Positions 10,051 to 29,183 of a stretch of 34,818 nucleotides of DNA are shown here, one piece after another. This stretch comes from Cyanobacteria bacterium SIG27. GTDB lineage: Bacteria > Cyanobacteriota > Vampirovibrionia > Gastranaerophilales > Gastranaerophilaceae. The stretch's first letter is position 1, and every line of letters starts with the position of its first letter. The notes beneath the pieces are model-generated. The model was not told the origin of the DNA. It ran no database searches and saw nothing but the letters and a program-made list of their open reading frames with translations. A program made the position numbers and the translations under genes. The DNA lies in contig SUTT01000021.1 of the NCBI GenBank assembly GCA_015152565.1, forward strand, positions 1 through 34,818, given 5' to 3'.

Positions 10051-11457
10051 TTGAGTAACTTACAAAACAAAAAAGAGCTTGAGGCGTGGGATAATTTTCT
10101 ATCAATTTTAGAAAGTAATCTTCCGGGGTTTGTTAAGCCTTGGATTAATTCGCTTGAACCTGCACTGCCTTTATTTGAAGAAAGCGAAAATGGTATATTT
10201 TTAATTAAATCCAACCAAAGTTTTGGTATTCAAGTGCTTACTCAAAAACACCTCAAGGAAGTTGAACAAGCGCTTTTTGAAGCAACAAACATTAAAAGAG
10301 CTGTTAGATTTGTTTTAGATGAAACTATTAAAAAGAAAAAAGTTGCTCCAAAACCAACAAAAGAACAAAAAGAACACATTGAAACCGCTCAAAAAATGGA
10401 ACATTTAGCCCAAATGCATTCTTTTTGTGGGTTGAATTTAAAATATACTTTTGAAAATTTTGTTGAGGGTGAAAGCTCTAAATTTGCATATAAAATTGCT
10501 CAAATGATAGCAGAAGCCCCAGGACAAAAATATAATCCTTTGTTTTTATCGGGCTCTGTTGGGCTTGGTAAAACCCACTTAATGCAAGCGATTGGGCATA
10601 AAATTTTAAAAAATTTCCCAAATTTAAAAATAAGATATACAAAAGCAGAAGACTTTGGAAATAAATTAATCGAATCGTTAGCATCTTGTAAAAATTCAGG
10701 TGATGTTAACGAAAAAATGCGCAAATTTAGAGATATGCACAGAAATGTCGATGTTTTATTGATTGATGATATTCAATGGATTGACGGCAAACAAAGAACA
10801 GAAGAAGAAATTTTTAACACATTTGACGCACTTTACCACGCCGGAAAACAAATCGTTTTTGCTTCTGATAGACCACTAAGTGCATTTGAAAAAATTCCCG
10901 ATAGATTAAGAAGCCGTTTTGAATGGGGAATTGAAGCTAATATTAAAATTCCGGATTTAGAAACTCGTATGGAAATAGTTAAGCGCCATGCGATATTATC
11001 ACAATATCCAATATCAGACGATGTTGCACTGTTTTTAGCTAAAGAATTTGATACAAACATAAGAGAATTAGAAGGTGCATACAATAAAGCTTCAGCAAGA
11101 GCTTCAATTGAGGGGGTTGAGCTGACTGTTGAATTAACAAAAGAATATTTAAATTTTTCGCAAAAGAAAAAGAAAATCACAGTTAATGATATTTTAGAAA
11201 CTTGCGCTAAATATTTTTGCGTTGACACTAAAGAAATTCTTTCAACTGCAAGAGCTAAAGAAGTGGTAAACGCTAGAAAATATGCAATTTATCTTTCTCG
11301 TGAAATTTTAGATTTAAGCTATCCTAACCTAGCAAAAGAATTTAACAAAAACCACACAACAATTATGTATCAACACGAAAAACTTAAAAAAGATATCGAA
11401 ACTAATAAAGCTATGCAGATAATTACAGAAGAATTGTCTGAATTAATTAAAAGATAG
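10051..11457 (+). CDS. dnaA: Chromosomal replication initiator DnaA
   Basis: The protein is 468 aa. It has domain I (about 1-90), a short linker, AAA+ domain III with Walker A GSVGLGKTHL (K174), Walker B LLIDDIQW, sensor region RLRSRFEWG, and C-terminal helix-turn-helix domain IV. The start is TTG; an in-frame stop lies just upstream and AGGA (10039-10042) precedes it. Domain IV keeps ARKYAIYLSRE, but the DNA-contacting signature is FNKNHTTI, one residue shorter than the usual FGGRDHTTV and lacking its Arg-Asp pair. DnaA unwinds the origin. dnaN is about 17 kb away, unlike the classic dnaA-dnaN pair. Confidence 0.96.
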   Translation: MSNLQNKKELEAWDNFLSILESNLPGFVKPWINSLEPALPLFEESENGIFLIKSNQSFGIQVLTQKHLKEVEQALFEATNIKRAVRFVLDETIKKKKVAPKPTKEQKEHIETAQKMEHLAQMHSFCGLNLKYTFENFVEGESSKFAYKIAQMIAEAPGQKYNPLFLSGSVGLGKTHLMQAIGHKILKNFPNLKIRYTKAEDFGNKLIESLASCKNSGDVNEKMRKFRDMHRNVDVLLIDDIQWIDGKQRTEEEIFNTFDALYHAGKQIVFASDRPLSAFEKIPDRLRSRFEWGIEANIKIPDLETRMEIVKRHAILSQYPISDDVALFLAKEFDTNIRELEGAYNKASARASIEGVELTVELTKEYLNFSQKKKKITVNDILETCAKYFCVDTKEILSTARAKEVVNARKYAIYLSREILDLSYPNLAKEFNKNHTTIMYQHEKLKKDIETNKAMQIITEELSELIKR

Positions 11458-24585: not shown

Positions 24586-26916
24586 ATGTATGGTTTTAAT
24601 TTTGAATTAGATGATTTTCAAAAACTTGCCATTGAACATATTCAAAATGGCAAAAGTGTTGTAGTTTGCGCACCAACTGGAGCAGGAAAAACTTGTATTG
24701 CTCAAAGTGCAATTCATTTGGCTTTAGAAAAAGGAGAAAGGATTTTCTATACTACTCCACTTAAAGCTTTATCTAATCAAAAATATAATGATTTTTCACG
24801 TATTTATGGTGAAGACTTAGTTGGTCTTTTAACAGGGGACACAACAATTAATCGTGACGCTCAAATTGTTGTAATGACCACTGAAGTATTTAGAAATATG
24901 CTTTATGGTACAACATTTGGTGATTTAAAAGACAATTTAAATAATGTTAAATATGTTGTATTAGATGAGGTTCATTATATGAATGATGAATCTCGTGGAA
25001 CCGTTTGGGAAGAAAGTATTATCTATTGCCCAACAAATATTCAATTAATTGCGCTTAGCGCAACAGTTCAAAATTCAGCCCAATTAACTGATTGGATTAA
25101 CACGGTTCATTCTAAAACAGAATTAGTTTATACTGATTTTCGCCCAGTTCCATTAAGGTTTTTCTATTATGATTCATCTAAACCAAATACAATTTTGCCA
25201 CTTTTAACTCCTGATAAAAAATTAAATAAAAAAATTAGACCAGAGAGCAAATATAAATATTTTAACAAAAAAGAAAAAATCAAAAACCCCACAACAAGCG
25301 TTGTTCAAGTATTACATGAAAAAAATATGCTTCCTGCAATTTATTTTACTTTTTCAAGAAAAAAATGTGATGAAAATGCAAGAAAATGTTTAAAACTTGA
25401 ACTTTTAAATAAAGATGAAATTTTAGAATTAAATAAAATTATAGATGAATATATAAAACTCTATCCTTATTTAGAAAATAATCCTCAAATGGATTTAATT
25501 AAATCAGGAATTGCTTCTCACCATGCAGGTTTACTTCCGGGGTGGAAAGCATTAGTTGAAAAGTTATTTCAAAAAGGTTTAATTAAAGTTGTTTTTGCAA
25601 CCGAAACACTTGCTGCCGGAATTAACATGCCAGCTCGTACTACAATTATAAGTTCAATTTCAAAAAGAACAGATAATGGTCATAGAACACTATCTGCTAA
25701 TGAATTTTTACAAATGTCTGGTAGAGCTGGTCGCCGTGGAATGGATGAAATTGGCTATGTTGTAGTTATTGGAACCCCTTTTCAAACTCCTGATGAAGTA
25801 GCTCAACTTGTTTTATCAGATTCAAACCCATTAGAAAGTAAATTCAGCCCAAGTTACTCTATGGTTTTAAATCTATTACAAAGATTTTCTCTTGATGAAG
25901 CAAAGGAATTAATTCTTAAAACATTTGGATACTTTTCATCTACAGATAGATTAACTCCATTGTTAAAGAAAAAAGAAGCACGCCTTGAAGAAATTAAACT
26001 TCTTCATGATTTTAATTGCAAATGGAATTTAGAAGATATTGATTTTGAAAATTACAACAAATTAAAAAATCAGTTTGTTCAAACAAGAACTTTGTATAAA
26101 ACCCTTAAACGTCAAGCAAAAGGGAAATATAAAAACCCATCTGAAGCTCCAGAGGTGATTGAATTTTATGAAAAATCGAAACATCTTCAAAAACAAATAG
26201 AAAATTATGGGTGTAATGTTTGTAAAATTTACAAAAAACATAAAAAATGCCTTGAATTAACTGAAAGATTTAATAAAGAAATTAAAAAATTAGATAAAGA
26301 AATCGAATTTCAAAAAGATGTTTATTGGCAAAAGTTTTTAGCTCATAAAACAATATTAGAAACAACAAACAATCTTGTTGATAATTACCCAACAGACAAA
26401 GGTAAAATCACAATGGCATTACGTTGCGAAAATGAGCTATATTTATCTGAAATTATTCAATCAGGAATTTTGGATAATTTAAACGTAGTTGAATTAGCTT
26501 CTGTAATTTGCGCAATAATATCAGAAGACGTTAGAAAATCTGATGAAGAAATGGCAAAACCTTGTTGTAAGGTTGTAAGAAAAACTCTAAATCAAATCAA
26601 AGATATTAGAAGAAAAATTTTCTTACTTGAGCGAGATAATAATATTGAAAATCCAATGTATATTAATCCATTTTATTGCTATTTTATTGAATATTGGATT
26701 GGAGCTAACTTAAACCCTGATAATCAACCAATGGTTACTTGGGAAGAAATGTTTTCTGATAGCGAAGTTTCGCAAGGTGATGTCGTTAGAACATTTAAAA
26801 GAACAATCGATGTTTTAAGACAACTTTTAATTTTGGATAATATATCTGAAAATGTAAAATTTAACGCTAAAGAAGCAATTAAATTAATTAATGTAGAACC
26901 AATTAATGTGGACTAA
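24586..26916 (+). CDS. Ski2/Mtr4-like DEVH-box helicase
   Basis: The protein is 776 aa, SF2. Walker A APTGAGKT is residues 29-36, motif II DEVH, motif III SAT, motif IV-V ATETLAAGINMPARTTII, and motif VI QMSGRAGRRGMDE. Between core and C-terminal parts there is a Cys cluster YGCNVCKIYKKHKKC reminiscent of bacterial Ski2-like helicases. The C-terminal region resembles the DSHCT domain. Related cyanobacterial and actinobacterial enzymes are thought to unwind RNA. It starts 37 bp after dut and is followed directly by a DUF1653 gene. Confidence 0.92.
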   Translation: MYGFNFELDDFQKLAIEHIQNGKSVVVCAPTGAGKTCIAQSAIHLALEKGERIFYTTPLKALSNQKYNDFSRIYGEDLVGLLTGDTTINRDAQIVVMTTEVFRNMLYGTTFGDLKDNLNNVKYVVLDEVHYMNDESRGTVWEESIIYCPTNIQLIALSATVQNSAQLTDWINTVHSKTELVYTDFRPVPLRFFYYDSSKPNTILPLLTPDKKLNKKIRPESKYKYFNKKEKIKNPTTSVVQVLHEKNMLPAIYFTFSRKKCDENARKCLKLELLNKDEILELNKIIDEYIKLYPYLENNPQMDLIKSGIASHHAGLLPGWKALVEKLFQKGLIKVVFATETLAAGINMPARTTIISSISKRTDNGHRTLSANEFLQMSGRAGRRGMDEIGYVVVIGTPFQTPDEVAQLVLSDSNPLESKFSPSYSMVLNLLQRFSLDEAKELILKTFGYFSSTDRLTPLLKKKEARLEEIKLLHDFNCKWNLEDIDFENYNKLKNQFVQTRTLYKTLKRQAKGKYKNPSEAPEVIEFYEKSKHLQKQIENYGCNVCKIYKKHKKCLELTERFNKEIKKLDKEIEFQKDVYWQKFLAHKTILETTNNLVDNYPTDKGKITMALRCENELYLSEIIQSGILDNLNVVELASVICAIISEDVRKSDEEMAKPCCKVVRKTLNQIKDIRRKIFLLERDNNIENPMYINPFYCYFIEYWIGANLNPDNQPMVTWEEMFSDSEVSQGDVVRTFKRTIDVLRQLLILDNISENVKFNAKEAIKLINVEPINVD

Positions 26917-26917
26917 T

Positions 26918-27124
26918 ATGCAAAAAATTGAAGTAGGAAAAATTTATAAACATTATAAAGGTAATTTATACAAAATTATCGCTTTAGCAAAATGCTCTGA
27001 AACATTAGAAGATTTAATTGTTTATAAATCAATAAAAGATGATAAAACTTGGGTTAGACCAAAGAAAATGTGGAATGAGATTGTGGATAATAAAAACACT
27101 TTGCGTTTCACTTTAATAGAATAA
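26918..27124 (+). CDS. DUF1653 protein
   Basis: The protein is 68 aa from ATG 26918 (an earlier ATG at 26906 would overlap the helicase; homology begins after it). KIYKHYKGNLYKIIALAKCS, then VVYKS-like LIVYKSIKDDKTWVRP match the DUF1653 family, a small domain whose role is unknown but which often sits near nucleic-acid enzymes. It starts one base after the helicase stop, so is coupled to it. A strong terminator (27133-27160) ends the unit. Confidence 0.88.
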   Translation: MQKIEVGKIYKHYKGNLYKIIALAKCSETLEDLIVYKSIKDDKTWVRPKKMWNEIVDNKNTLRFTLIE

Positions 27125-27132
27125 ATCATATT

Positions 27133-27160
27133 AAAAGACCTTTTAAATAAGGTCTTTTTT
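27133..27160 (+). terminator. Rho-independent terminator
   Basis: AAAAGACCTT (27133-27142) and AAGGTCTTTT (27149-27158) form a perfect 10-bp stem with loop TTAAAT, followed by further T. Ends the dut-helicase-DUF1653 region. Confidence 0.9.
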
Positions 27161-27176
27161 ATTTAGATAAATTAGT

Positions 27177-27827
27177 ATGATAAAAAATTTAATTAGTTCA
27201 TTTTTAAACTTAATTTATAATCAAAAATGCCTTGTTTGTTCTTGTGCAAAAACTGATGAATTGTTGTGTAAAAGTTGTTTAAAAGATGTTCATTATTTAT
27301 CCACTTTTCCACAGCGAATTTTTAATTCAACAGAAATTTATTGCGCAACAATTTATCAATCAACAATTAAAAAACTAATTCAATTACTAAAATTTTCACA
27401 TAAGAAAAAAGCTTCAAAAGCCTTGGCTAATATACTTTTTGAATATTTTAAAAGATTGAATTTAAATAAAGATTTTATTATAGTTTATCCACCATCATTT
27501 TTTGTTAAAACCGCCCAAAGAGGCTATGAACATATGTTTTTAATAGCTAAAGAGTTTTCAAAGTTGACCGGTTTTAATGTTTATAAAGATTTAATTATTA
27601 AATCAAAACCTACAAAACCTCAGTATAAAGCTAAAAACAGACATTCAAATATTAAAGATAGTTTTAAGATTAATCAAAAATATGTTGAAGAATTGAAAGA
27701 TAAAAACATTCTTTTAATAGATGATATAACTACGTCTGGCGCTACTTTAGAAGAATTAATTATTTGTTTAAAAAAATCAAACTTAAATAATATAACTTGT
27801 TTAACAATCTCAAAAGCAGGTTGTTGA
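27177..27827 (+). CDS. comF: ComF family phosphoribosyltransferase-like protein
   Basis: The protein is 216 aa. N-terminal zinc-finger-like CLVCSCAKTDELLCKSCLK, then a type I phosphoribosyltransferase domain with IVYPPSFFVKTAQRGYEHM and the PRPP loop LLIDDITTSGATLEEL near the end. ComF is required for late steps of DNA uptake in competent bacteria, though homologues are general. Two DnaA-box-like sequences lie inside the coding DNA (27297-27313) and another across its stop codon. A -10 (TAGATA) close to the ATG suggests a very short leader. Confidence 0.9.
   Translation: MIKNLISSFLNLIYNQKCLVCSCAKTDELLCKSCLKDVHYLSTFPQRIFNSTEIYCATIYQSTIKKLIQLLKFSHKKKASKALANILFEYFKRLNLNKDFIIVYPPSFFVKTAQRGYEHMFLIAKEFSKLTGFNVYKDLIIKSKPTKPQYKAKNRHSNIKDSFKINQKYVEELKDKNILLIDDITTSGATLEELIICLKKSNLNNITCLTISKAGC
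27297..27313. promoter_or_regulatory. DnaA-box-like pair inside comF
   Basis: TTATCCACT (27297-27305) and TTTTCCACA (27305-27313), both one mismatch from TTATCCACA and overlapping by one base. They encode LSTFPQ in comF. Confidence 0.45.
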
Positions 27828-28052
27828 TAACCTGTGGAAAAAATTAACAAGTTTTGAACATGTAAAAAATAAGCTATATCAAGAGTTTTAACCCTTTTTG
27901 CACAAATATTTTGTCTTTAATATTATTATTATATTTTTAATTAAATAAATATATATTTATATAATATAAACAATTTTGAAAAATCCAATTAGATAGGTTT
28001 GTAAGAATTTTTATTTTTATACTATAATTTTAGAAGATACAATAAGGAGACT
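27822..28052. other. Candidate replication origin (oriC) upstream of dnaN
   Basis: Between comF and dnaN: TGTTGATAA and TGTGGAAAA (27822-27841, two inverted-orientation DnaA-box-like sites 2 bp apart), TTTTGCACA at 27896-27904, then a 55-bp stretch of pure A/T (27916-27970), then the dnaN promoter. The boxes plus an AT-rich unwinding region beside dnaN match the cyanobacterial origin layout. Confidence 0.55.
27999..28028 (+). promoter_or_regulatory. dnaN promoter
   Basis: TTGTAA (27999-28004), 18-nt spacer, TATAAT (28023-28028), then AAGGAG (28044-28049) in the leader. Confidence 0.65.
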
Positions 28053-28058
28053 TTGCCA

Positions 28059-29183
28059 GTGGAAATAGTTTTAAATAAAGAAGATTTTTCAAATGGAATT
28101 AAGATTGTTGAAAAAATCACATCTCAAAAGGCAATTCAACCTATATTATCAAATATTTTAATTGAAACAGTTACATCAGATAGAATTAAGTTTTGTGCAA
28201 CTGATTTAAATCTTGCAATAAATTATAAAACTTCAGCTGAAGTTATTAAAGAAGGTTCTATAACTTTATCAGCTAAAAAAATCTCTGAAATTGTATCAAA
28301 ATTATCTTCAACAGAAGTTACTTTAAAAACCAGCGAAGAAACAGATAATATCAAAATTAAAAGTGGTAAAACAGAATTTGATATGATTGGTTTATCTGCA
28401 TCTGAATTTCCTAAAGTTTTAGATGATACAGATACTCCTGAAACAAAAACAATTATTTTAAATAAAAACGAATTTTCAAAAGCTATCAAACAAGTTATTT
28501 TTGCTGTTTCTCAGCAAGAAACGCAAGCTGTTTTAACAGGTGTTTGTTTTAATATTGAAAATAATATTTTAGAACTTGCTGCAACGGATGGAAATCGTTT
28601 AACAAGAATTCAAAAAGAAATCGATACAACTGTTGATGAACTAATCAATTTTATAGTTCCAGCTAAAACTTTAGCAGAAGTTCAAAGAATTTCTTCAATT
28701 ATTGAAGATGAAAATATTACTTTAAAAATTCAAAAAAATAAAATCTTATTTGAATTTGAAAACTTAGCTTTTCAATCTCGTTTAATTGACGGTATTTATC
28801 CAAAATATCAACAGTTAATTCCAAATGCTTCTGAAAAGAAAATCGTAATTGATAGAGCTGAATTAATTAACTCAATTGAAAGAGTTTCCATCATGGTTAA
28901 CGATAGAACAAATGTTGTTCGTTTTAATTTTAGCGCTGGTCAATTAGAAATTATGGCAGATACACCAGAAGCAGGAAGATCAAAAGATTATATTGATATT
29001 CAATATGAATTTGATGATATGTTAACAGCGTTTAACTATAAATATGTTTTAGATGGTCTTAAAAATATGGATTCTAAAAATGTCGAAATTGAAATTTCTG
29101 ATGTTTTAGCAGCTTCTATTTTTAAACCGCAAGATGATAAAAATAATTACATTTGTTTAATTATGCCAGTTAAAGTTCAATAG
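28059..29183 (+). CDS. dnaN: DNA polymerase III beta sliding clamp
   Basis: The protein is 374 aa from the GTG at 28059. A TTG at 28053 is also open, but AAGGAG (28044-28049) lies only 3 nt from TTG and 9 nt from GTG, favouring GTG. Three repeated clamp domains of about 120 aa are visible, with the family motif LAATDGNRL near residue 180 and the C-terminal YICLIMPVK ending that forms the protein-binding pocket. The clamp tethers polymerase to DNA. It is not next to dnaA. Followed 10 bp later by thrB. Confidence 0.96.
   Translation: MEIVLNKEDFSNGIKIVEKITSQKAIQPILSNILIETVTSDRIKFCATDLNLAINYKTSAEVIKEGSITLSAKKISEIVSKLSSTEVTLKTSEETDNIKIKSGKTEFDMIGLSASEFPKVLDDTDTPETKTIILNKNEFSKAIKQVIFAVSQQETQAVLTGVCFNIENNILELAATDGNRLTRIQKEIDTTVDELINFIVPAKTLAEVQRISSIIEDENITLKIQKNKILFEFENLAFQSRLIDGIYPKYQQLIPNASEKKIVIDRAELINSIERVSIMVNDRTNVVRFNFSAGQLEIMADTPEAGRSKDYIDIQYEFDDMLTAFNYKYVLDGLKNMDSKNVEIEISDVLAASIFKPQDDKNNYICLIMPVKVQ

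Follow-up and report, generated by a model that had tools for sequence, protein, structure and literature searches.

Where the chromosome starts to replicate in Gastranaerophilales, the non-photosynthetic sister lineage of Cyanobacteria, is the question raised by a locus at which DnaA-box-like sites and a long A/T stretch precede dnaN. The DNA analysed here (the window; 34,818 nucleotides) is the entire contig C21 of a 54-contig, 1.84-Mb Gastranaerophilales MAG, with Candidatus Gastranaerophilales bacteria as its closest named relatives. An earlier note on the window had proposed a candidate oriC beside dnaN, a proposal that is strongly supported by box clustering, conserved spacing and the strand-skew switch of relatives. 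The segment 27243-27970 is very probably the chromosomal replication origin, with DnaA binding, looping, unwinding and activity being predicted from sequence.

Genes and predicted DnaA boxes upstream of dnaN

The gene order at the locus is DEAD/DSHCT helicase, small open frame, comF, dnaN, thrB and mnmG. Profile matches back comF, dnaN, thrB, mnmG and dnaA in the window, in agreement with the earlier naming of comF, dnaN, mnmG and dnaA, and the distance from dnaA to dnaN (16.6 kb) is consistent with the approximately 17 kb given before. The match of comF is well under the curated cut-off of its model, so that the name denotes no more than family membership. The features are as follows:

10051..11457, + strand: dnaA (TIGR00362), helix-5 motif KNHTT, with Asn at the E. 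coli D433 position
27177..27827, + strand: comF-family gene (TIGR00201, E 1.5e-25, 90 bits, under the model's curated cut-off), lying between and across both box clusters and adjoining dnaN in genera carrying the clusters
27243..27251, - strand: predicted oriC1 box 1, TTTTGCACA, inside comF; exact consensus; position and spacing the same in relatives
27265..27273, - strand: predicted oriC1 box 2, TTTTACACA, inside comF; exact consensus; 22 bp from box 1, conserved
27276..27284, - strand: predicted oriC1 box 3, variant TTTTAAACA, inside comF; the homologous site is TTTTGCACA in many relatives
27305..27313, + strand: predicted oriC1 box 4, TTTTCCACA, inside comF; exact consensus; conserved though the encoded residues vary
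27822..27830, - strand: predicted oriC2 box 5, variant TTATCAACA; some relatives have TTATCCACA or TTATACACA at the homologous position
27833..27841, - strand: predicted oriC2 box 6, TTTTCCACA; exact consensus
27852..27860, + strand: predicted oriC2 box 7, variant TTTTGAACA; relatives have TTTTGCACA, TTTTACACA or TTTTCCACA at the homologous position
27896..27904, + strand: predicted oriC2 box 8, TTTTGCACA; exact consensus; adjoins the putative unwinding module, with a conserved layout of box, 12 nt and TTA
27916..27970, no strand assigned: A/T stretch, putative unwinding element; 55 bp of pure A/T, the longest in the window (the next is 29 bp)
27917..27931, + strand: DnaA-trio-like repeat, TTA ATA TTA TTA TTA (3'-AAT-5' on the opposite strand), separated from box 8 by 12 nt
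28059..29183, + strand: dnaN, sliding clamp (TIGR00663, E 1.7e-85), with a likely GTG start

The open frame of dnaN begins at TTG 28053, and both the AGGAG spacing and the homologues favour GTG 28059. The gene upstream of comF (24586-26916) encodes a Ski2-like DEAD/DSHCT helicase, the best profiles of which are archaeal Hel308-type, far under their cut-offs.

The exact consensus TTWTNCACA occurs 12 times in the window and six of these sites fall within 27082-27904, compared with a maximum of three per 830 bp in 300 simulated sequences, which demonstrates clustering of DnaA boxes beyond chance. TTWTCCACA is found 35 times in the whole MAG, where its densest group is the comF-dnaN locus, and all three copies on the contig lie in 27082-27841. 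In addition, 27243-27273 is the only same-orientation TTWTNCACA-N2-32-TTWTNCACA pair in the MAG. The three variants (27276, 27822 and 27852) have A for C at box position 6, and their homologues are often exact. TTTTCCACA is present at two of the eight window sites, and G or A at position 5 predominates in the clade. Boxes with one mismatch were rejected as evidence, as 180 were counted in the window versus 167 expected from shuffles; sites 27082 and 27297 were rejected as part of the core, being not conserved in relatives.

Among the five sites previously reported, three (27305 +, 27833 - and 27896 +) are exact TTWTNCACA, and the other two have one mismatch (27297, TTATCCACT; 27822, TTATCAACA). 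The exact sites at 27243 and 27265 and the variants at 27276 and 27852 had been missed, so that the core is 27243-27970 and begins upstream of 27297, where the earlier note had placed its start. The 55-bp pure A/T stretch that the same note described is present and adjoins the boxes, as is found in bacterial origins.

Conservation of the two clusters and strand composition in relatives

A dnaN profile was used to fetch 80 loci, and the sites of approximately 50 relatives fall into two clusters whose spacing is nearly fixed: oriC1 occupies the 5' portion of comF, and oriC2 the gap from comF to dnaN. The closer loci have 3.65 and 2.98 exact boxes per kb in the bins from -1000 to -500 relative to dnaN and 5.11 per kb in the bin from -250 to 0, compared with about 0.2 per kb in the flanks. 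Such a bimodal profile corresponds to a bipartite oriC, in which two box clusters are split by a gene, except that the separating gene is comF instead of dnaA, which is usual but not strictly required. The eight homologous sites are spaced by 22, 11 and 29 bp and by 11, 19 and 44 bp in the window; this spacing is identical in locus L052 and kept in many congeners, which are non-independent observations. Genera in which the peaks were detected (g1, g3, g26, g36, g37 and g39, out of 41 sampled) have comF preceding dnaN, whereas comF is elsewhere in most other genera, with the exception of G032, where comF is near dnaN yet few such boxes are present. Locus L064 has dnaN without comF or boxes. A link of the origin to comF and not to dnaN was rejected for 13 distant family members, whose comF loci were scanned and have no clusters.

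The boxes inside comF could have been a by-product of its coding sequence. When 45 comF genes were recoded with synonymous codons at each gene's own usage, 125 boxes were observed versus 30.6 expected (maximum 47 in 1000 simulations), a count that is somewhat inflated by relatedness. Single comF genes were often significant as well, including that of the window (3 observed, 0.52 expected, p 0.006). Coding constraint is thus ruled out as their cause, and the sites within comF are under selection beyond protein-coding need.

Box 8 and the TTA triplets that follow resemble a DnaA-trio unwinding module. A basal unwinding system (BUS) has been defined by a DnaA box no more than 16 bp from at least three 3'-NAN-5' triplets (PMC8287927), and the box at 27896 is followed by a 12-nt spacer and five such triplets. 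TTATTA is located exactly 12 nt past the last box in most of 46 clade loci, and in most relatives the trio run is broken by one base after two triplets. The same layout with another box, TTTTCTACA-aatatt(n6)-TTATTATTA and similar, was detected in sister genera (17 of 42 Lys-type genomes, named for the DnaA residue discussed below), compared with almost none in shuffles.

Strand composition was analyzed in long-contig stretches of relatives by a GC3-skew model with the coding strand as covariate, which replaced raw GC skew because the latter is confounded by gene orientation. The corrected switch coincides with dnaN in three relatives of the clade, with a flip no more than 0.5 kb from the gene (G118, 275 kb versus 274.8 kb; G042, 219 kb versus 218.75 kb; G036, 108 kb versus 108.07 kb), and in G120 of a sister lineage (323 kb versus 322.7 kb); none of 300 gene-order permutations fits as well. 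The raw cumulative skew reaches its minimum at 274,711 in G118 and at 217,940 in G042. G117 is discordant, with a weak signal and the best switch at 273 kb versus dnaN at 165 kb. The earlier note had named a skew minimum elsewhere as the finding that would speak against its proposal; among the five long contigs fitted, the corrected switch is away from dnaN in G117 alone. The raw minimum of the window itself is at 19.9 kb, a value from 35 kb of sequence, which is too short and in which gene orientation confounds the skew. In G117:C1 (locus L047), the box beside the trios is degenerate (TTTTAAACA), and a change of origin, a rearrangement or an assembly error is possible in this genome.

A proposed bipartite origin and its alternatives

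It is proposed that DnaA would bind oriC1, with three leftward sites and one rightward site, in the 5' part of comF, and oriC2, with two leftward and two rightward sites, between comF and dnaN. Judging from known bipartite origins, the clusters may be joined, with comF looped out. From box 8, a DnaA filament might extend over the TTA trios 12 nt onward and open the A/T-rich DNA in front of dnaN for loading of the helicase.

The boxes are located upstream of and inside the comF-dnaN genes, and DnaA is known to regulate genes via boxes outside origins (PMC7198777), so they could instead serve DnaA as a transcription factor of comF and dnaN, with the origin elsewhere. This appears improbable: the skew switch falls at dnaN in four of the five long contigs fitted, the succession of box, 12 nt, trios and A/T stretch is typical of unwinding modules and not of promoters, and Lys-type relatives without comF at this place keep boxes and trios upstream of dnaN. 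An origin at dnaA, 17 kb away, would follow the pattern of many bacteria, in which dnaA often neighbours the origin, and the gene is indeed in the same window. However, the window scan found no exact DnaA box near dnaA, in clade relatives dnaA and dnaN are 38-182 kb apart or on separate contigs, and in G118, where dnaA is at 92-93 kb and 182 kb from dnaN, the skew switches at dnaN and not at dnaA, which leaves this location with hardly any likelihood. Three genomes (G034, G063 and G090) have a dnaA-dnaN gap of just 0.6-1.7 kb, unlike most other family members.

A rather closer competitor is that oriC2 alone (27822-27970) is the origin and the comF cluster an accessory DnaA site for timing or titration. 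Locus L067 has oriC2 boxes without comF, the distance from the comF cluster to dnaN is approximately 1.4 kb in L054 and L059 as opposed to 0.8 kb, and oriC2 of H. pylori unwinds alone, whereas melting in C. difficile needs both parts (PMC7561715). On the other hand, the arrangement of the comF cluster is conserved and kept beyond coding need, and the cluster co-occurs with oriC2 in several genera. The single-cluster origin is thus possible but unlikely, and the bipartite arrangement spanning 27243-27970 is preferred.

Position upstream of dnaN is what would be expected from Cyanobacteria, for which dnaN-linked origins carrying TTTTCCACA boxes have been described (PMC4674748, PMC7198777), and the likeness to cyanobacterial origins suggested in the earlier note is therefore well founded. 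Similar to the oriC of Synechococcus elongatus PCC 7942 and Cyanothece ATCC 51142 (PMC7198777, PMC4674748), the region is directly upstream of dnaN and away from dnaA, and an A/T-rich stretch is common to them, with TTTTCCACA-type boxes shared in part, at two of the eight sites; in S. elongatus, the skew also switches regularly at dnaN. In contrast to the cyanobacterial origins, most boxes here are TTTTGCACA or TTTTACACA and fall in two clusters split by comF, four of the eight sites are well inside the comF coding sequence, and DnaA has Asn in place of the Asp that corresponds to E. coli D433. In bipartite origins, dnaA is the usual separating gene (PMC7561715). The two clusters around a gene, and the unwinding element and trios in the dnaN-side cluster, are shared with the bipartite origins of Bacillus subtilis, Helicobacter pylori and Clostridioides difficile (PMC7561715, PMC5043019), from which the present locus differs in having comF, not dnaA, as separating gene and oriC1 within coding sequence. 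A functional box-trio module has been reported in S. elongatus (PMC8287927). The box, the 12-nt spacer and the repeated NTN triplets on the strand shown are common to the locus and the basal unwinding system (PMC8287927, PMC6669920), and sister genera show the box-spacer-trio layout again with another box sequence; however, the triplet is TTA (3'-AAT-5') and not the commonest 3'-GAT-5', and the runs are short or interrupted in many relatives.

The bipartite origin split by comF instead of dnaA, as well as the covariation of boxes and DnaA described below, appear to be new. Neither a comF-separated bipartite origin nor a description of an origin in Gastranaerophilales or Melainabacteria was found in the literature searched, which is weak evidence as most subscription journals were outside the search. 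The locus would provide an origin for Gastranaerophilales, and a dnaN-linked origin is supported for both this lineage and Cyanobacteria. It may serve as a marker for closing and orienting Gastranaerophilales genomes and for growth-rate estimates, and the comF cluster offers a case of origin sites kept within coding sequence. Two further observations concern the replication genes of the genomes examined. No DnaA match was detected in two near-complete genomes of Cyanobacteria (G157 and G158), in agreement with reports of dnaA-less cyanobacteria (PMC7198777), and G010, G041, G104 and G037 have an extra diverged dnaN-like gene of approximately 24-29% identity that may belong to a mobile element.

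Box sequence and DnaA residues across the family

In 13 distant genomes, a search for TTWTNCACA pairs revealed no common site, and a k-mer search then recovered TTTTCTACA and TTTTGAACA. In most other genera of the family, the region upstream of dnaN has clusters of TTTTCTACA or TTTTGAACA without a TTWTNCACA cluster. G000, G042 and G118 lack the inverted pair TGTAGAAAA-N2-32-TTTTCTACA, and each of the other genomes in which it was found carries it at a single site. This site is 5-6 kb from dnaN in G001, G041, G071 and G007 and approximately 36 kb in G097.

Among 78 genomes compared for DnaA domain IV, 18 were left unclassed owing to ties or too few boxes; G171 was excluded from residue counts (a wrong frame had been taken as DnaA) and remains as a long row in the DnaA tree. 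Residues were numbered by an E. coli domain IV sequence that matches structure 1j1v over the helix-5 region. The residue at the D433 position is D in all 10 genomes with mostly CCACA boxes (outgroups), N in all 11 with mostly [AGT]CACA and K or R in all 29 with mostly CTACA; among genomes with mostly GAACA, it is K in seven and N or T in three, the latter belonging to the clade of the window and having mixed boxes. At the P423 position, 28 of the 29 CTACA genomes have a residue other than proline, whereas proline is nearly always present in the other classes. E. coli DnaA is described as making base-specific contacts through both residues (PMC5043019, PMC7561715).

In the DnaA tree, a branch separates the D genomes from the others. 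With the D genomes as the outgroup, the N/T genomes group in a single branch with full support inside the K/R lineages, with deep branching only moderately supported, so that the canonical-looking boxes in the clade of the window would represent a return from a Lys-type state. We lean towards the view that the recognition code between initiator and origin has changed two or more times in a single bacterial family without the origin leaving the neighbourhood of dnaN, in a series comprising outgroups with Asp at the D433 position and TTTTCCACA-type boxes, most family members with Lys/Arg and either TTTTCTACA (usually with Glu, Val or Ser at P423) or TTTTGAACA (with Pro kept), and the clade of the window with Asn, TTTTNCACA and a comF-split origin. 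As independent changes are few, this covariation of box and DnaA is a correlation based on few events. A comparable divergence is known in Epsilonproteobacteria, which also have a lineage-specific box consensus and changes in helix 5 of domain IV; there, positions 435 and 438-439 vary and 433-434 are conserved (PMC5043019), whereas in the present family the variable residues are 433 and 423, and the boxes differ at positions 5-6. The D, K and N series (DnaA 423/433 and boxes) may provide a natural test of how specificity changes in an essential initiator without loss of the origin.

Sister-genus loci with TTTTCTACA or TTTTGAACA clusters upstream of dnaN and Lys/Arg at the D433 position of DnaA include L106, L109, L118, L120 and L254-L291. 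In several genomes the TTTTCTACA cluster is found 5-6 kb from dnaN (G001:C4:75990, G041:C1:71021, G071:C14:53356 and G007:C2:53820) or approximately 36 kb from it (G097:C8:70849), as would result from the insertion or movement of genes between the origin and dnaN.
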